Below are positions 18,973-39,716 of a stretch of 39,716 nt of DNA, piece after piece. Source of the DNA: a virus; the IMG/VR virus record IMGVR_UViG_3300037507_000911, positions 1-39,716 of that record. One strand, written 5' to 3'. The position numbers were made by a program, and so were the translations under genes. The notes beneath the pieces were generated by a model, which was not told the DNA's origin, made no database searches, and was given only the letters and a program-made list of their open reading frames with translations. How positions within the stretch are numbered: the stretch's first letter is position 1; every line of letters begins with the position of its first letter.

Positions 18973-20796
18973 TTATAGTCTTCCCCCTAGTGAAAGAACC
19001 GCTCCTGGAGTATTTGGTTGTTGCGCGACTGCAGCGTTGCCACCACCAAGTTGTGCGAGTAGTCCTTGGATGTTTGGTGGACCTGCAGGTGCTTGTGCTT
19101 GCATCTCTGCGCCCATTCCTGGCATTGCTAGTCCTGGCATGGTTTCTGGTGCGCCTTGTGGTGCCATCGCTGCTTGGCGTTCTTGTGCGCGTTGCTGTGT
19201 CATTTGTACTGCTTGATAGATTGGGACGTTTTTTTCGATGGTGAGCATTGTGAGATACGCCAAATCGTCTGGCTGATAAGGTCCGTTAGGGTCAGCTGCT
19301 TGGGCTTGTATTGAGGACAGTAGTGCAGCTTCCATGGACTCAGCAGTAATGCGGTCTTTTTCCAGTTCGGGGTCTGTGATGAGTGGGTCAGCTTCGCGAG
19401 CAGATTCTTTAGACATAAGCCCAGTCCCAAGACGCTGACCGAGACCAACGATAAGACCGTTAACGTCCGAACCAGACGACGGATAGTTGACGTAGTGGAA
19501 ATCAGTTTCGAAAGTTTTGTTTGGTACATAGTGTGTCATTCCCCCTGATACTCGTCCTGGGATAAAGAATGATTTCTTTTGGTTACCCCAATATGCTTTT
19601 TCAATTCCGATAGCAATCTTATCTTCTTCGTAGAGTGCTTGTTCAAATACTGCTTGTGCTTCTTGTACACGGAAGTCAACGGTTGCTGACAACACGTTTT
19701 CGCCTCTGCGTCCTGTACGAATGTTGGTTCCTGATTCGCCACCGAACTCTGCAGGGATAGCACCTTCAAGTCGCTCTTGGCGTTCCAAGCGGTCAAGTGC
19801 TGTGTCGGTTTTGTAACCTGGGTTGGTTTGCAACTGTTGAATGTCGCCGCCCTTAACTACACCAAGTTGTCCTGTTTTGCCGTCAGCAAGTTGGATGATT
19901 TCTGGGTTTTCTCCTGGGCGTGATACAAGGTATTCGTCTGGGAAGATGCCGCGTTCGATAGCGATTTCGGTGAGTGCTTGTAAGCGTGCGCGGGTGAAGT
20001 ACATTCCGAGGATGCCGTCGTATTGTCCGCGTGGCTGGTCAAGTGTGATGCGTGATGGGACTACTGCGAGTGGCATGCCTGTGCGGTTTGGGATGCGTTC
20101 TAGTTCGATGGTTTCTAGACCAGCGCGTTCTGGTGGTGTGAGACCTTCAGCGAGTGGTGCGCCCATAACTGCGATAACCATTTCTTGGTCGTCGACATAT
20201 TCGAGGATGGTGAATTTGGTGTCGAAGGTGACGCGACCCATACGGAGTTTTCCGATGACTTGTTCACCGTAATAGTCGATAAGCCATTGTGCGGTCTTGG
20301 TGTAGGTGAAGATGCAGTCGTCTGGGACTAGGTTGTCTGGGTCTTCCGATGGTGCAGCGTAGGTGTCTAGCGGGTTGCGTACTGCCCATGTTGGTTGTAG
20401 TTTGCGGAAGTCTGGGCGGAGCATTACTGGGCTTGATGAGTATGCGAGGAAGTGGCGTGCGCGACGGCGCATCTTCAGGTTCATCTTGTTGTGGTCCCAA
20501 TAGGAGAGAACTACTTTTTTGCGTAGTCGTGCCATTTCTTGGGAGTCAAGGTTGCCTTGTTTTACTGGAGGGAAAAATGGCATCGGCATGGTTGATGCAA
20601 TACGCATCGATGTTTGGTCCAAGCCTTGGATGAGGAGGTTCGCTACGTTTGTGCGTGCGTTGCGGTCTAGTTCTGAGAGTGGGATTACTACGTCGCCGTT
20701 GGCTAGGTCGCGTACTTCGCGCATGCGACGCAGGACTGGTCCTTGTGCTTCGCGTCGTGCGTTGTAAAGTTCGACAATTTGTTCGACGGATAGCAC
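18973..20796 (-). CDS. Portal protein (607 aa)
   Basis: Builds the DNA entry ring. Residues about 1-120 are helical, followed by a core with MLRPDFRKLQPTWAVRNPLD, a beta region and the crown-like helices after 400. The C-terminal about 80 residues are rich in Met, Pro, Ala and Gln, typical of the disordered tail of portals from this group. Length is typical and the gene directly follows the terminase. The start is GTG 20796, 10 nt after AAGGAG; no better ATG is near. Confidence 0.85.
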   Translation of the reverse strand: MLSVEQIVELYNARREAQGPVLRRMREVRDLANGDVVIPLSELDRNARTNVANLLIQGLDQTSMRIASTMPMPFFPPVKQGNLDSQEMARLRKKVVLSYWDHNKMNLKMRRRARHFLAYSSSPVMLRPDFRKLQPTWAVRNPLDTYAAPSEDPDNLVPDDCIFTYTKTAQWLIDYYGEQVIGKLRMGRVTFDTKFTILEYVDDQEMVIAVMGAPLAEGLTPPERAGLETIELERIPNRTGMPLAVVPSRITLDQPRGQYDGILGMYFTRARLQALTEIAIERGIFPDEYLVSRPGENPEIIQLADGKTGQLGVVKGGDIQQLQTNPGYKTDTALDRLERQERLEGAIPAEFGGESGTNIRTGRRGENVLSATVDFRVQEAQAVFEQALYEEDKIAIGIEKAYWGNQKKSFFIPGRVSGGMTHYVPNKTFETDFHYVNYPSSGSDVNGLIVGLGQRLGTGLMSKESAREADPLITDPELEKDRITAESMEAALLSSIQAQAADPNGPYQPDDLAYLTMLTIEKNVPIYQAVQMTQQRAQERQAAMAPQGAPETMPGLAMPGMGAEMQAQAPAGPPNIQGLLAQLGGGNAAVAQQPNTPGAVLSLGGRL

Positions 20797-20844: not shown

Positions 20845-22827
20845 TTAGCCTTGTAGCATCCATGTTGGTCGCCATTGTCGTGGTGGGAGTTTGACTCCGC
20901 TTACGTTCGGGAAGTGTAGTTCTGCGAACCAGTTTGCCATTACGAGGTCGGTGCCGTTCTTTTTGTCTGGTGTCCATTTGGTGAGTTCGTCTACTAGTGC
21001 GAGTGTTTTCCAGTTGCCGCGCATTGATGGGAGTCGGACTGCGCCTGCACGGTAGAGAGGTGGGAGTAGTGCTTCGATACCAAGTTTTTCGTCGAATTTG
21101 TTTCGGTGTGTGGTGTGGGGGATGATGTTGACCATTTGTCGTGTTTGCCATTTGCGTACGAAGTCGTGGGCGAGGAGGAATCGTTGGGCGGCGTTGACCT
21201 CTACCACGATATGTGATACAGGGTAGCCGTATGCGAAGGCACGGTTGGTCCAGTCTTCTAATAGTCCTGAATATGTTTGTGATGTGGTGTCATATCCCAA
21301 GAGTTCTTCGGCTGTGAGCTTGACTCGTTCAACATCGATGAGGTATCGCAGGTTGGTGTGGGGTTGGTAGAGCCACCATTGGATTCCCCAGAACTGTGAC
21401 GGTGATGGGTCGACAGTAATGATGGATATTACTGGTGGTCCGAGTCCTTCAGGGATTTGTCCTGGGAGTCTGTCGTTGTCGATGCACCCTGGGTAGAGAA
21501 CTCCGTCTTGTCCTAGTCCGCCTGTGACCCAAACACGGGAAATAAGGTTGGCATCGTCTGCGTCGTCTTCTTGTTGGTAGACAACTTTGAAGGTTCGCGG
21601 GTTCGAGTAGCGGATGTAGGACAAATCTTTCCATGAGAGACGCTGTGGGTCTAGGAGTGGTCCTTCTGGGTATGGTTTTGCGTCGTATCGGCGGGATGCT
21701 GGACCTGTGTCTAGTTCTTCGTAGTATGCCTTGTACACGATATGCTTGTATTTCTGGCTTTTGGTTGGTTCTGTGGCAGCAAGTGACTCTGGGGTGGTCA
21801 TGTCCATGCCGTCGTAGTCGGTTTCATCCACATCGTAAGAGATTTTGTTGAGACAGTGGGCGTATAGGTCGCCTGTTCCTAGTCTTTGCCCTACGACAGC
21901 TAAGAGTCCTGCGGGGTCTACGCGGGCTTCGGCTACTTGGTCCCAGCGTTCAAGCATTTTGTCGCGTGTTGCACCTTCACGGGCGTTGTCTACGGACGCT
22001 ACGTCGTCGAATAGGCATAGGTCGGCGCGGTGTCCGATGTATTCTGAGTCAATTCCGTAGGCGCGGACGGTTGGTTCTTTGTTGTCTAGTCCGTTTCCGT
22101 CTAGTTGTTCTACTACGAACTCTTCTGCACGCCATAATGCGCCTTTGTCGGAGGGTTTGAACCTGCCGTAGTCGATGGATAGGCAGCCAATTGCGTCTAC
22201 TGCTAGTCCTTTTTTGACTATTTCTGGGTCTGGGTGGATTGGTTGTGGGCGTTCGAGGGTTTCACGGATGCGTCGTGAGTATTGTTTTGCCATGGCTTGT
22301 GAGATTGAGCCAATCATGACGCGGATTGAGCGGTTTCGTACGATTGCCCATACGGCAACATCGTGGAATAGGGTGGATTTTCCTGCGCCTGGTGGGACGT
22401 TAAGTACTACGAATTCTTTTTCGGGGTGTTCTAATAGTTCTACGAGGGTGACTGCGGCTTCTACTTGCCATGGGGACGGGACACGACCTAGGTAGTAGCG
22501 GCGGAAGAAGTCGAAGTCTTCTAGTCCGCGTTGTGCTTCTGGGCAGAGTCGTCCGAGTGGGATGGCTGGGGGTAGGTTGGTGGCTTCGTCGAGGTCTTGT
22601 TCGTATTGTTTGTGTTGTACGCCGCCGCCTTTGCCGCGGACACGGGTGGCTTCTAAGACGGCTTGGTCTAGTTTTGCTTTTGCTGCTTTGGATTTGGCTA
22701 ACCAGTTTGAGCCTGTGTTGATGTGTACGCCTGCGATGCGTGATGCTTCGGTGATTGATGAGCCTGCTGCTATGGCTGCGAAAAACCTGGCTTTGTCTTC
22801 TGGTGCTACTTTACGTTTGGTTCCCAT
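20845..22827 (-). CDS. terL: Terminase large subunit with N-terminal HTH domain (660 aa)
   Basis: The DNA packaging motor. Residues 1-60 form a helix-turn-helix-like domain (SSITEASRIAGVHINTGSNW) resembling terminase small subunits. The ATPase follows: Walker A NVPPGAGKST (143-152), Walker B LCLFDD (270-275) and a VVGQRLGTGD coupling segment (311-320). The nuclease domain has a first acidic residue in ITVDPSPSQ (D473), a second in VVEVNAAQ (E543) and probable third Asp in KNGTDLVMA. At 660 aa it is longer than most, by the N-terminal domain. No separate small subunit was found next to it, so this domain may do that job. Confidence 0.93.
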   Translation of the reverse strand: MGTKRKVAPEDKARFFAAIAAGSSITEASRIAGVHINTGSNWLAKSKAAKAKLDQAVLEATRVRGKGGGVQHKQYEQDLDEATNLPPAIPLGRLCPEAQRGLEDFDFFRRYYLGRVPSPWQVEAAVTLVELLEHPEKEFVVLNVPPGAGKSTLFHDVAVWAIVRNRSIRVMIGSISQAMAKQYSRRIRETLERPQPIHPDPEIVKKGLAVDAIGCLSIDYGRFKPSDKGALWRAEEFVVEQLDGNGLDNKEPTVRAYGIDSEYIGHRADLCLFDDVASVDNAREGATRDKMLERWDQVAEARVDPAGLLAVVGQRLGTGDLYAHCLNKISYDVDETDYDGMDMTTPESLAATEPTKSQKYKHIVYKAYYEELDTGPASRRYDAKPYPEGPLLDPQRLSWKDLSYIRYSNPRTFKVVYQQEDDADDANLISRVWVTGGLGQDGVLYPGCIDNDRLPGQIPEGLGPPVISIITVDPSPSQFWGIQWWLYQPHTNLRYLIDVERVKLTAEELLGYDTTSQTYSGLLEDWTNRAFAYGYPVSHIVVEVNAAQRFLLAHDFVRKWQTRQMVNIIPHTTHRNKFDEKLGIEALLPPLYRAGAVRLPSMRGNWKTLALVDELTKWTPDKKNGTDLVMANWFAELHFPNVSGVKLPPRQWRPTWMLQG

Positions 22828-22839
22828 GCGGGGACAACC

Positions 22840-23814
22840 TTAGACGACTGATGGTTTGTTGGTTGCGCGTTTTGCTAGTTTTTTTGCTTCAGCTTTGGTC
22901 AACATTTTTTCTACGATGTTTGGTTCTACTTTTGCTCCAGCTTTTTTAAGTTCTGTTCTTAATGCTGCTTGTATTTGTGCAGCTGTTTTCCCTTGCACTG
23001 GAATTTCTCCTGATACTTTTCCTGGTGATGCAGAGTTTGTTGCCACTGATGGTGGTAACTGGATGATTGGTCGACCTGATTCGGTGAACTGTGGTGTCTT
23101 AGGTAATTTTGGATAGGCAGGTAGTTCTGTTGTTTTCTTTGGTGTTTTAACTACATAGATGGAACCGCCACCTGGTGGGAGTGTTTTCCCTTTGTCCACC
23201 CATGAGCTACCTGTTGCATATCCAGTTGCAACGCTTTGTGTTGAACCTTGAACATTTAACGGGACATCTGTTCGCATGCCGAAGACTCGAAGGTCATTTG
23301 GCATTGCGCGTGAATAACTTGGTTTTAGCTCTTGGATGCCGCGAACTGGGGAGCCGTGTACGAGGACTGTTTGTCCTGTTATTTTGTTTCCGATTCGTGC
23401 GGGGATACCTGAGTTTGCTGCTGCGTTGATTCCTGCTTGTATACCTTTACCTGCAACGATTGCGGTGCCTGTGATTGCTGCGTCGAGTGCAGCGGACTTT
23501 GATAGTGCGGTTAAGGATTGTCGGTCACGGTTAACTGCTGCACCTAATGCTTTGCGGGTTGTGTTCGCATATGGGTTGAGCATGGTGTTGGCGAGGGAGA
23601 TGCCTTGTCCTAGGGTGCGTAGTCCTTGGTCGCCTGGGGTTAGTGGTTGGGTTTGTCCTGCGGCGGTTCTTCCTGATGCGACGATGCCTGATGCCCAGTT
23701 AACTACATCGGTTGGTGATGGCAGGTCTAAGTTCTTTGGTTTGTCTGCTACTGATTGTTTGTAGGAAGCTAGTGAACCTGAGTAGTCTGGTCGTTTAGGT
23801 TTACGAGGTGCCAT
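22840..23814 (-). CDS. Putative ADP-ribosyltransferase-like virion protein (324 aa)
   Basis: The first about 145 residues are Ala/Ser/Gly-rich. The core (about 148-228) has TVLVHGSPVRGIQELKP (His153), a VFGMRTD strand, SVATGYATG and GGGSIYVVKTP. This order (HG-S/T, G-x-L-x-P, A-x-x-YA, then IYVV-x-P) resembles Arr and PARP-like ADP-ribosyltransferases. The usual third-position Glu was not located. The C-terminus is helical and Lys-rich. Its N-terminal SLASYKQSV motif is shared with the neighbouring 224-aa protein. It lies just before the terminase, overlapping its neighbour's stop (TAATG). The family call is tentative. Confidence 0.5.
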   Translation of the reverse strand: MAPRKPKRPDYSGSLASYKQSVADKPKNLDLPSPTDVVNWASGIVASGRTAAGQTQPLTPGDQGLRTLGQGISLANTMLNPYANTTRKALGAAVNRDRQSLTALSKSAALDAAITGTAIVAGKGIQAGINAAANSGIPARIGNKITGQTVLVHGSPVRGIQELKPSYSRAMPNDLRVFGMRTDVPLNVQGSTQSVATGYATGSSWVDKGKTLPPGGGSIYVVKTPKKTTELPAYPKLPKTPQFTESGRPIIQLPPSVATNSASPGKVSGEIPVQGKTAAQIQAALRTELKKAGAKVEPNIVEKMLTKAEAKKLAKRATNKPSVV

Positions 23815-24488
23815 TACTTGTCTTTTTTGTTTTTACCTAGAAGGTATCCGATGGCTGCTGCTGCTGGTGAGGATATTGCTGCACCTACTTTTGCACCAGT
23901 TTTGATTCCTTGTTTAGCTGATTCTGCAGAGTAGTTAGCAATTTTTGTAGCAACATTAGATTCTTTTGTAATCATGCCTTTGATTGTTCCAGCGATTTGT
24001 TCTGTGGTACGCATTGGCATTTGGATAAAAGCTTCTTTGCCTGGGGTTGCACCGAATTGGGTGTAGATGGTTCCTGCGGTTTGTTTGGTTTGTCCACCAA
24101 TTGCTGGGAGCTTGTTACCAATTTTGCTCATTGCACTGCCAAGGTAGTCAACGCCTGCTGATACTCCTAGTTTGGATGCTGAGGTGTTTACTGCGCTACT
24201 TACTTTTGATGCGATTGCTGGGATTGGTCCTGCACCGCCACCTAACATGATTGCGCTGAGGGTTGTGTTTGCTACGTTTCCTTTAGAAAGTTTCGAGCCA
24301 GCTAGTGATGTTCCTAGTGGTGTGCTGGAACCTGCGAACATGCCTGTGTCTGCTGGTTTGTTTGGGGTTGGCATTTTTGTGCCGCCAGGTTTAACACTTG
24401 ATACTGTTGCTTGTTTGAAATCTGCGAGTGAACTGTTCCAGTCAACACCTTGAATGTTTGGTGGTGTTTCGGATTTCTTTTTTGGCAT
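23814..24488 (-). CDS. Small Ala/Gly-rich protein with shared N-terminal motif (224 aa)
   Basis: Starts MPKKKSETPPNIQGVDWNSS and continues LADFKQATV, closely matching the SLASYKQSV region of the next gene. The rest is Ala, Gly, Ser and Thr-rich with weak hydrophobic segments (about 75-95 and near the C-terminus, AAAAIGYLLG), ending KNKKDK. ATG 24488 is preferred to an upstream in-frame start at 24533, which would lie in the promoter. It is the first gene of the late minus-strand block. Probably a virion protein; function not recognised. Confidence 0.55.
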   Translation of the reverse strand: MPKKKSETPPNIQGVDWNSSLADFKQATVSSVKPGGTKMPTPNKPADTGMFAGSSTPLGTSLAGSKLSKGNVANTTLSAIMLGGGAGPIPAIASKVSSAVNTSASKLGVSAGVDYLGSAMSKIGNKLPAIGGQTKQTAGTIYTQFGATPGKEAFIQMPMRTTEQIAGTIKGMITKESNVATKIANYSAESAKQGIKTGAKVGAAISSPAAAAIGYLLGKNKKDK

Positions 24489-24489
24489 G

Positions 24490-24518
24490 TTGCAAGAGTA
24501 ACATAAAGATGCTATTGT
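24490..24518 (+). promoter_or_regulatory. Candidate divergent promoter into the non-coding region
   Basis: The plus strand reads TTGCAA (24490-24495), 17 nt, TATTGT (24513-24518), four of six matches in each box. It overlaps the opposite promoter and would transcribe the hairpin-rich segment that follows. Confidence 0.35.
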
Positions 24519-24527
24519 CTTGTTCAA
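24500..24527 (-). promoter_or_regulatory. Candidate promoter of the late minus-strand operon
   Basis: The minus strand reads TTGAAC (24522-24527), 16 nt, TATGTT (24500-24505). The ATG at 24488 follows 11 nt after the -10, so the mRNA would have only a few leader bases, as is common in Actinobacteria. Confidence 0.45.
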
Positions 24528-24865
24528 CTTCACAAGTCGTCACTGTCGGGAGATAGCGATGCACGCAGGGCTGTACCACGGTTGCATGTGGCGGGGCGTA
24601 AACAGGGGAACCTGGGTTGACTTCTATTCTTTGAAATAGGAGAGCAACGTGATGAACGGTATATCATCAAAACAAAGGTGTCGGCTAAAATTGGCTACGG
24701 CGACCTTCCGTGGGGACGGGAACTGTGGGGGAGAGCAACGTACTGCTTGTTGTGGGGTTGCTGCCAACGGCAGGGTTACTAGCGCGCCCGTTGGGCTTGC
24801 TCGCATAGAAGGAAGGTGAGGGTCATGCTGAGGGTCTCCAAGTCGACGGCACCCTTTTCTTTGCG
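24525..24865 (+). ncRNA. Candidate structured non-coding RNA
   Basis: About 340 bp with no convincing gene but many inverted repeats: CTATT/AATAG (24624-24639), AAGG..CG/CGACCTT (24675-24707), CTGCC-AAC-GGCAG (24761-24773) and GCCC-GTT-GGGC (24786-24796). The last two hairpins have complementary loops, and CCAACGG (24764-24770) and CCGTTGG (24788-24794) can pair instead. A 12-bp sequence GGAGAGCAACGT occurs twice (24639-24650, 24730-24741). Strand, ends and existence of the RNA are inferred from the candidate promoter and pairing only. No tRNA, tmRNA or RNase P RNA pattern was seen. Confidence 0.4.
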
Positions 24866-24968
24866 CCCTCCCCAACCGTATGACAGAACCTAGCTGTTGC
24901 ACCAAATTTAGTGCTAAATAACACTCTGCCCCCCTAGCAAAAAGAGTGAAAACATCTCGAAACGATAA

Positions 24969-24988
24969 CCTACCCCTACCCCCTACCC
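24969..24988 (-). repeat. Telomere-like G-rich tract
   Basis: The minus strand reads GGG-TA-GGGGG-TA-GGGG-TA-GG, a pattern able to form a G-quadruplex; the plus strand could form an i-motif. Confidence 0.6.
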
Positions 24989-25012
24989 AGTGGCTCGGCA
25001 GAGCCCCAGTTG

Positions 25013-25024
25013 GTGATATATCAC
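25013..25024. promoter_or_regulatory. Palindrome GTGATATATCAC
   Basis: Perfect 12-bp palindrome. The inner core GATATATC recurs in palindromes at 25264-25273 and 25421-25432 on either side of the early promoter, suggesting binding sites for one dimeric regulator. Confidence 0.5.
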
Positions 25025-25038
25025 ACAGGCAGGCAGGC

Positions 25039-25083
25039 GCGGACATGTGTACGGGCGGACAGGTGTACGCATAGCGGACAGGC
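25039..25083. repeat. Iteron-like GCGGACA repeats
   Basis: GCGGACA(T/G)GTGTACG occurs twice, 16 bp apart (25039-25053 and 25055-25069), then a shorter GCGGACAGGC (25074-25083). A fourth GCGGACAGG lies at 25173-25181. The even spacing of the first two is about 1.5 helical turns. Confidence 0.6.
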
Positions 25084-25093
25084 AGACACCTGC

Positions 25094-25137
25094 ACCCCTA
25101 CCTACCTACCCGAAAACAAAACACGGCTACCCCTACC
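25094..25137. repeat. ACCCCTACC repeats and TAGG tract
   Basis: ACCCCTACC occurs at 25094-25102 and 25129-25137, and also at 24972-24980 and 25582-25590. Between them the minus strand reads GGG-TA-GG-TA-GG-TA-GGGG (25095-25111), a second possible quadruplex. Confidence 0.6.
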
Positions 25138-25263
25138 TAGCTGTATGTATACAAGTTGCAGACAAGTAGACCGCGGACAGGGTCGCCTAGCTGTGTGTCG
25201 CTGTGTGTAGCGTCTATCGTTGTGTGTGATGGGTGAGCGTTGTTTATCTTGTTTTGTGTTGGG

Positions 25264-25273
25264 TGATATATCA
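25264..25273. promoter_or_regulatory. Palindrome TGATATATCA
   Basis: Perfect 10-bp palindrome 22 bp upstream of the candidate early promoter; same core as the sites at 25013 and 25421. Confidence 0.45.
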
Positions 25274-25294
25274 AAAGAATTCTAGGAATGGTCG

Positions 25295-25323
25295 TTGTAT
25301 TTGTATCACATATGTGATTTAAT
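25295..25323 (+). promoter_or_regulatory. Candidate early promoter of the plus-strand block
   Basis: TTGTAT (25295-25300), 17-nt spacer, TTTAAT (25318-25323). The -10 matches five of six consensus bases. A 14-bp palindrome fills the spacer. The first plus-strand gene starts 40 nt downstream with an AAGGGG ribosome binding site. Confidence 0.5.
25305..25318. promoter_or_regulatory. Operator candidate ATCACATATGTGAT
   Basis: Perfect 14-bp palindrome lying between the -35 and -10 of the early promoter. A protein bound here would block RNA polymerase, so it is a likely repressor or regulator site. Confidence 0.6.
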
Positions 25324-25345
25324 AGAGGTAGTAAGTACAACTACT

Positions 25346-25361
25346 ACTAACAAGGGGAATA
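25346..25361 (+). repeat. Shared leader repeat, copy 1
   Basis: ACTAACAAGGGGAATA, including the ribosome binding site, precedes the 70-aa gene. An exact copy is at 25662-25677. Confidence 0.8.
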
Positions 25362-25362
25362 T

Positions 25363-38663: not shown

Positions 38664-39653
38664 TTATACCGCCGTGTTACCGACGAGAACCCAAGTATCA
38701 GTTGCAATCTTGATGGCAGTAGCGGTAGCCCACTGACCATTCAGTTTCACCTTAGAACCCTGTGCGTTCAATGTCACGCCAGAACCAGCAGCAACAGTCA
38801 CCTGACCTGAACCAATCTGCATAAGGTTCACTTGGTCGCCAATGTCAAAAGCAACAGACGAGTTAGGTGGAATAGTCACAGTGAAGCCAGTGCTTTTATT
38901 GAGCGTCACCAACTTGTGAGCATCAGCCAGCACAAGCGTGTAAGTGTCAGTAACAGCGTTAAGTGTGAGGTTGTCAAGTTCTGCTGAACCAATAGCACGG
39001 TCAGCCATCTTCGCCTGTGTCACAGCACTATCAGCAATCTTGCCCGTAGTCACGTTCAAATCAGCAATCTTGGCTGTCGTCACATTCAAGTTAACAATCT
39101 TCGCTGTCTCAACAGAATCAGTAGCCAACTTCGCAGCAGTCACGTTCGCGTTCAAAATCTTGGCAGTAGTAACAGCATCCGAAACCAAACCAGCAGCAGT
39201 AATCTGACCCCACTTCACCCCATTTGTGGCAGCCGAATCAGCAAGCAACGCAAAATCATTTGTGCCAACAGCCAAACGGTCAAGCACACTACCCGTAGTG
39301 ACCAAGATGTCACCCTTGGTGGTAAGTGTTGAAGCGACCTTGTTCGCTTGGTCAGCATCAGTAGCAGTAAAAACTGGGTAACAAGTCGCACCAGAGTTAT
39401 GTGCAGCCGCAGTAGTCCCATCAACACCACGGGTGATGCTTGACAATGATGAGCCTGAGCGTGTGCCAACCAAAACCTTTTCTTCGGTACTAAGACCTGG
39501 GTCAATAACCATAAAGAATGAACCGTTAGCGGTACTGTTCCAGTTCGTTACGTCACCCGTCAACGTTGCAGTACTGTCGCTGCTGGTAATGGAATTGGTC
39601 AGGGTGCAAGCAGGAGCCGCACCAGCGTATGACCTTCGTGTTGCGTATGCCAT
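38664..39653 (-). CDS. Tail fibre protein with 10-residue repeats (329 aa)
   Basis: The N-terminal part (1-110, beta-rich) likely attaches to the tail. Residues about 161-230 are ten-residue repeats (VTTAKIADLN type), followed by a beta-rich C-terminal domain. The ribosome site AGGAG overlaps the stop of the 619-aa gene. The start lies in the terminal repeat, so the gene is continuous only in the circular form; the 619-aa gene comes directly before it. Confidence 0.85.
   Translation of the reverse strand: MAYATRRSYAGAAPACTLTNSITSSDSTATLTGDVTNWNSTANGSFFMVIDPGLSTEEKVLVGTRSGSSLSSITRGVDGTTAAAHNSGATCYPVFTATDADQANKVASTLTTKGDILVTTGSVLDRLAVGTNDFALLADSAATNGVKWGQITAAGLVSDAVTTAKILNANVTAAKLATDSVETAKIVNLNVTTAKIADLNVTTGKIADSAVTQAKMADRAIGSAELDNLTLNAVTDTYTLVLADAHKLVTLNKSTGFTVTIPPNSSVAFDIGDQVNLMQIGSGQVTVAAGSGVTLNAQGSKVKLNGQWATATAIKIATDTWVLVGNTAV
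38994..39173 (-). repeat. Ten-residue tandem repeat in tail fibre
   Basis: Six 30-bp units coding for VTTAKILNAN, VTAAKLATDS, VETAKIVNLN, VTTAKIADLN, VTTGKIADSA and VTQAKMADRA. A seventh, weaker unit follows. Such a period suits a trimeric beta-stalk. Confidence 0.85.
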
Positions 39654-39716
39654 TTATACTCCTAATCTTGTACTGAACGCATCGTCACGACGCAGGTTCC
39701 TTCAAGGTCCCAATTG
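39604..39716. repeat. Terminal direct repeat, right copy
   Basis: Exact copy of bases 1-113. Removing one copy gives a 39,603-bp circle. It contains the start codon (39653) and ribosome binding site of the 329-aa tail protein and the 3' end of the 619-aa tail protein. Confidence 0.95.

Follow-up and report, generated by a model that had tools for sequence, protein, structure and literature searches.

A conserved structured RNA predicted opposite the terminase operon of freshwater phages, in a repeat-rich region that also carries a two-box site

The window analyzed here is a 39,716-nucleotide stretch of viral DNA (IMG/VR record IMGVR_UViG_3300037507_000911), and the intergenic region at positions 24489–25362 of it is probably a bidirectional control hub that holds a conserved structured RNA together with a separate two-box site. 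Comparison with related phages indicates that positions 24526–24862 (+ strand) encode a structured noncoding RNA that was previously uncatalogued. Its RNA-like fold, its fixed place and orientation, and its promoter elements are conserved at the sequence level. We infer that the RNA is transcribed and, since the rightward genes behind it are not conserved, that it stands alone and probably acts in trans. An earlier note on this DNA had described the region as an intergenic segment packed with unlike repeats that served as an origin or master control region; it overlooked the RNA, which fills the left half of the region.

Results

The window phage and its host

The window carries an exact 113-bp terminal repeat (positions 1–113 and 39604–39716), so the record is a closed genome. 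It is the genome of an ∼40-kb tailed phage of a common freshwater type, and the features discussed below are collected in Table 1. Among deposited phages, the terminases nearest to that of the window are those of LanE43-AprE7 and F5 (29% identity), phages that were isolated on 'Ca. Planktophila' (PMC10202952). These two phages and the window have p03 (77%) and a capsid family in common and a similar layout, as distant relatives. Since the closest deposited terminases, p03, and the capsid family all point to Planktophila phages, a freshwater actinobacterial host is likely. The control region is followed in the window by a gene for a Gene product 88 family protein (Pfam PF17338, 25679–26533), as it is in a few relatives but not in most genomes that carry the RNA.

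Table 1. Coordinates of features in and near the control region of the window
Feature	Position	Strand	Details
Portal, leftward late operon	18973-20796	-	
Terminase large subunit, leftward late operon	20845-22827	-	phrog_38, 660 aa
First gene of leftward late operon	23814..24488	-	Start codon at 24488
Putative rightward RNA promoter	24490..24518	+	-35 TTGCAA (24490-24495), 17-nt spacer, extended -10 TGCTATTGT (24510-24518)
Putative overlapping leftward (late operon) promoter	24495..24527	-	Extended -10 TGTTACTCT (complement of 24495-24503), -35 TTGAAC (complement of 24522-24527)
Predicted full-length noncoding RNA	24526..24862	+	Extent judged from the promoter and the U-rich tail
H0, 5' hairpin with invariant GGGA loop	24543..24556	+	33/47 relatives, 13 different stems, 0.35 expected in shuffles
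Conserved pseudoknotted core of RNA, 170 nt	24569..24738	+	Model R1, 160 bits, E 7e-54; covariation
U-rich tail TTTTCTTT after weak hairpin, probable terminator	24855..24862	+	-10 kcal/mol
Box A AAAAGAGTGA	24940..24949	+	Single copy in window; 61/77 box C places, always 42-44 bp before box C
Putative -10-like hexamer TAACCT	24966..24971	+	16 nt past box A; many relatives have TAATAC or TATACA instead; by inspection
Box C, conserved 18-bp element	24994..25012	+	CTCGGCAGACCCCCAGTTG in relatives
Palindrome TGATATATCA	25014..25023	.	Kept in close relatives (alignment)
Three tandem GCGGACA iterons	25039..25080	+	Starts 25039, 25055, 25074, spaced 16 and 19 bp; conserved in close relatives only
Possible early promoter, 14-bp palindrome ATCACATATGTGAT in spacer	25295..25325	+	Sequence; palindrome retained in L003, L007, L008

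The left half of the region encodes a predicted pseudoknotted RNA

In a comparison of the region with distant relatives retrieved via a neighbouring protein, a block of ∼175 bp (24566–24740) was 74–81% identical, and nearly all other intergenic DNA could not be aligned. This block contains the RNA core, which was the sole significant match when the window was scanned with model R1. The core consists of seven helices (P1, H1, H2, H3, H4, H5, and H6), a GNRA tetraloop, and a pseudoknot.

Support for this fold came from covariation in a MAFFT alignment of 47 sequences (A1), in which about 96% of the cells were paired (95.7–96.1%), compared with 75.1–77.4% in shuffled and 30–48% in slid controls. 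Changes on both sides of a pair were found in 364–368 cells (120 when shuffled, 34–79 when slid) and in 24 of the 41 pairs of the core. Essentially the same helices, H6 excepted, were recovered by RNAalifold unaided. The pseudoknot, formed by the H1 loop (UUGC or UCGC) with a GCAG, GCAA, GCGA, or GCGG segment after H3, was paired in all 47 sequences, four of which have swapped a U-A for a C-G pair, and the H2 cap (GGAA, GAAA, GTAA, or GCAA) follows the GNRA pattern. H5 is nearly invariant, partly through having served as a search anchor, so it was not counted as covariation evidence. Folding of 24540–24890 as a single sequence was unremarkable (z −0.91), and folding energy alone would not have revealed the RNA. 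ARAGORN detected no tRNA or tmRNA.

The fold also varies in larger units. One clade has a long insertion in H3, and divergent relatives retain H5–H6 with a different 5' half. In addition, two genomes hold a second, shortened copy of the RNA 5' half (P1-H1-H2-H3, with no H4-H5) at L211:13378-13475(+) and L217:5079-5203(-); these copies lie between RecE and VanY genes, in the same orientation as the main RNA and about 11 kb from it. Because divergent relatives swap the 5' half and two genomes carry it a second time, the RNA is, judging from these sequences, modular.

The RNA has a fixed genomic address

When 18 further virus contigs were mapped, 17 had the RNA immediately beyond the 5' end of the leftward terminase-portal-capsid operon, pointing in the opposite direction, the exception being the divergent L219. 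As an independent query, the terminase retrieved 67 loci. Of these, 54 contained the RNA, always on the strand opposite the terminase (the copy in L276 is truncated, 28 bits), and the 13 loci without it are all on contigs that end within 1,508 bp upstream of the terminase. The RNA is therefore present in 54 of 54 related terminase loci having enough upstream sequence. On the rightward side, no gene was common to more than 4 of 19 genomes, so the RNA is not the leader of one particular gene; a role as a general riboswitch or gene-specific leader was rejected for this lack of a conserved downstream gene in the 19 genomes.

A pattern built from the most conserved hairpin found the RNA in at least 120 viral contigs. 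The same pattern gave 18 matches in 84,980 cellular genomes, all without the remainder of the core and apparently fortuitous hits within coding sequence, and a search of 396 actinobacterial genomes with stricter filters and without a positive control gave 0 copies. BLASTN of INPHARED phages with three representatives gave no match to the RNA. Rfam 15, whose families include GOLLD, ROOL, OLE, tmRNA, pRNA, and introns, contained no matching family at permissive or gathering thresholds, the sole match in the region being at chance level, and no title or abstract describing the RNA was found in the open-access literature.

The cultured Planktophila phages E7 and F5 had no copy of the RNA (best score, 9 bits), so its function is dispensable or replaceable in those phages. 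Upstream of its terminase, E7 has an extended stretch (L281:1359-3157) that is mostly non-coding, is AT-rich, and contains hairpins, none of them of this RNA family. Two other kinds of RNA-like sequence occur near the RNA in some of its carriers. A hammerhead type II ribozyme-like match lies ∼700 nt downstream of it at L142:8827-8886(-), with 36.4 bits against a cut-off of 37. In L080 and L175 (also L063 and L064), the 3' half of a tRNA-like sequence, comprising the T-arm GGTTCGACTCC and its flanks, is inserted immediately upstream of the RNA promoter; such insertions are confined to some members, and ARAGORN calls none of them.

Overlapping promoters and the ends of the RNA

The rightward extended -10 sequence, TGNTANNNT, is present in 37 of the 47 relatives (4.7 in shuffles), mostly 49–60 nt before the core. 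Its leftward counterpart is present in 33 of 47 (5.5 in shuffles), and the two are mostly 13–17 bp apart. In the window, the -10 of the leftward promoter overlaps the -35 of the rightward one and sits beside the start codon at 24488. Overlapping bidirectional promoters of bacteria are described as being occupied by one polymerase at a time (PMC12825309). By analogy, the promoter pair of the RNA and the late operon could bind only one polymerase at once, and the overlap may couple or mutually exclude transcription of the two.

The window clade has a conserved, clade-specific 3' domain and a U-rich tail at 24855–24862, and in L118 a strong terminator lies directly 3' of the core. Across all clades, terminator-like sites were no more common than on the reverse-strand control (31 versus 35), which makes the 3' end the weakest part of the RNA anatomy and leaves room for read-through into the early genes and for a role in cis.

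A two-box element lies downstream of the RNA

The element at 24940–25012 often has a TA-starting hexamer 16–17 nt past box A, and it resembles a promoter with an unusual -35. Box C is often preceded by an AT-rich stretch and a run of at least five G or C (62 of 77 places, compared with 12.5 when shuffled). A scan with box C alone uncovered 34 new loci. In 30 of them a member of the RNA family lies immediately upstream, some being weak and divergent at 34–42 bits; of the remaining four, three have box C less than 300 bp from a contig end, with no room for the RNA. Because 30 of 34 box C loci lead to the RNA, the RNA and the two-box site are co-conserved in a fixed order, although they may merely be two core features of one phage group. 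The element is most likely an early-operon promoter or operator and possibly an origin or a packaging site. Pairing of a G-run in the RNA with box C, judged by eye, was discarded because the C/U-varying position of the core does not covary with box C.

By inspection, box C lies inside an inverted repeat in L066, L073, L081, L118, L177, and L211, with stems that differ yet remain complementary (GGCTCGG/CCGAGCC, GGCTAGG/CCTAGCC, and GGGCAGG/CCTGCCC). A DnaA-box-like TTATCCACA is found between the RNA and box C in L142, L153, and L160 and not in the window.

Most of the repeats vary among close relatives

The repeat families listed in the earlier note are present where it had placed them. In addition to the three tandem iterons, GCGGACA(G/T)G occurs at 25173, and a fifth copy (25742) is within a gene. 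ACCCCTACC occurs at 24972, 25094, 25129, and 25582, CCTAGCTGT at 24889, 25136, and 25186, and palindromes with a GATATATC core at 25015, 25265, and 25423; the 14-bp palindrome spans 25305–25318. Their repetition exceeds that of dinucleotide shuffles: three 9-mers have at least three copies in the region (mean of 0.00 in 500 shuffles), 21 9-mers have at least two (1.5 in shuffles), and 34 8-mers have at least two (6.2 in shuffles). Stretches of the same genome near 7050 and 36600 are equally repetitive.

As conserved signals, these repeats fared unevenly. Four close relatives have alignable intergenic DNA (L003, L007, L008, and L063), and across them only 24993–25081 is strongly kept, a segment that contains the 18-bp element of box C, the one TGATATATCA palindrome, and three tandem GCGGACA. 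The copies of ACCCCTACC and CCTAGCTGT and the fourth iteron, all among the repeats that the note had cited, differ from phage to phage. Of the iterons, whose spacing it had proposed to compare in related contigs, the three tandem copies are kept in these four relatives only; more distant ones have lost the iterons and retained the 18-bp element. Phage regulators probably bind these lineage-specific iterons and palindromes. The possible early promoter around the 14-bp palindrome was absent from the promoter-scan calls.

Discussion

The results are best explained by a control hub in which two interleaved promoters at the left edge would fire in opposite directions, one into the leftward terminase-portal-capsid operon and the other into a rightward noncoding RNA of ∼340 nt. 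This RNA would begin with the 5' GGGA hairpin, followed by the pseudoknotted core of 170 nt and then by a 3' domain that differs between lineages; the U-rich tail is probably its end. Farther downstream, the two-box element would be a separate site, most plausibly an early-operon promoter or operator and possibly an origin. The term "master control region" used in the earlier note thus suits the region, a large intergenic space between divergent genes in which the overlapping promoters and the two-box element are both conserved. The RNA might be made alongside the late transcript and, as a scaffold of RNA or of RNA and protein, serve a late-phase function such as assembly, packaging, or late switching; we hold such a late-phase role weakly and advance it as a tentative suggestion, position being the one tie of the RNA to packaging. 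It is improbable that the RNA and the downstream two-box site form one unit, in which the RNA targets or primes DNA there at the start of replication or packaging. If true, the unit would be an RNA-dependent initiation system in phages without a recognizable initiator protein.

Among the alternatives, the reading of the region as ordinary intergenic DNA, in which the repeats and the RNA fold arose by chance, has next to no probability: single-sequence folding energy is ordinary and every repeat family is short, but the covariation controls on 47 sequences and the conserved place in many contigs refute this reading, and the repeats exceed those of shuffles. A cis-acting leader of a rightward early transcript, be it a riboswitch or an antitermination RNA of the HK022 put kind, is unlikely. 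The RNA does occupy the 5'-terminal part of a possible rightward transcript, two genomes have the shortened second copy in the same orientation, and terminator support is lacking across clades; however, the first early gene of the window is more than 600 bp away, the genes there differ between clades and early genes have promoter-like sequence of their own, and the strong L118 terminator comes right after the core. HK022 put, too, is a structured RNA with which a phage transcript begins, a likeness to which the second copy in two genomes adds. The new RNA differs in being larger and probably a stand-alone unit, with no conserved operon found downstream.

We regard the origin favored by the earlier note, one used by host factors, as rather unlikely. 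It could be a DNA origin located at the two-box element and the iterons, or the structured RNA could serve as primer for an origin of the ColE1 kind. No replication initiator was recognized among the ORFs scanned (nor was the WhiB protein that it proposed for footprinting). The two boxes keep a rigid spacing of 42–44 bp, commonly accompanied by AT-rich DNA and a run of G or C, the RNA and box C co-occur in fixed order, and close relatives have the iterons. Against this, the DnaA-box search and GC-skew analysis that the note had suggested gave no DnaA box in 24489–25362 at up to one mismatch, with TTATCCACA there in just 2 of 94 relatives, and a skew of constant sign across the region; the iterons and most of the cited repeats are not conserved, and in the window clade the RNA probably stops before the two-box site. 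ColE1 RNA II is comparable in that it is structured and contains a G-run, and in that the phage RNA, too, would be transcribed in the direction of a conserved site some hundreds of bp farther on; the phage RNA, however, probably terminates before the site, and the spacing between RNA and site is variable. Also quite improbable is a packaging site (cos or pac) beside the terminase, for which the RNA would act as packaging RNA. Such sites commonly have repeats together with a short conserved box, and the region adjoins the terminase-portal operon. However, contig ends scatter in the region with no single point (which counts against a cos site), the window closes on itself via its 113-bp terminal repeat and so has no natural end, and its large terminase (phrog_38) is not of the gp16 type that uses the pRNA of phi29.

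That pRNA is phage-encoded, near packaging genes, and roughly similar in size to the new RNA. The new RNA differs in having no Rfam match and another fold, and the terminase next to it is of the large type rather than gp16; in the window, that terminase is the 660-aa phrog_38 large subunit and not a gp16-family ATPase. GOLLD and ROOL are large, ornate, pseudoknotted noncoding RNAs of phages and prophages that were found by covariation and whose function is unknown (PMC12286853). The new RNA resembles them as a pseudoknotted phage RNA found by covariation, with conserved and variable parts, and the GOLLD name also comes from lake samples (PMC12286853). It differs in being shorter (core of 170 nt and ∼340 nt in total, compared with about 660 and over 800), in having no match in Rfam, and in lying away from tRNAs at a fixed position opposite the terminase operon. 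The bacterial bidirectional promoters have overlapping divergent elements where one polymerase can exclude the other (PMC12825309); here the predicted arms are a structured RNA and a phage late operon.

The region also offers a caution, in that repeat-rich intergenic DNA taken as a set of DNA signals may be mainly an RNA gene. Few large structured RNAs are known in bacteria and phages, and the jobs of most are unknown. The RNA described here is near-universal in a widespread freshwater phage group, holds one fixed address, and is absent from Rfam 15, and the alignment, covariance model, and window coordinates make tests of its expression, structure, and knock-out direct. Because it is near-universal at a fixed genomic address, the RNA is likely to be important to infection and a core part of how these phages work.
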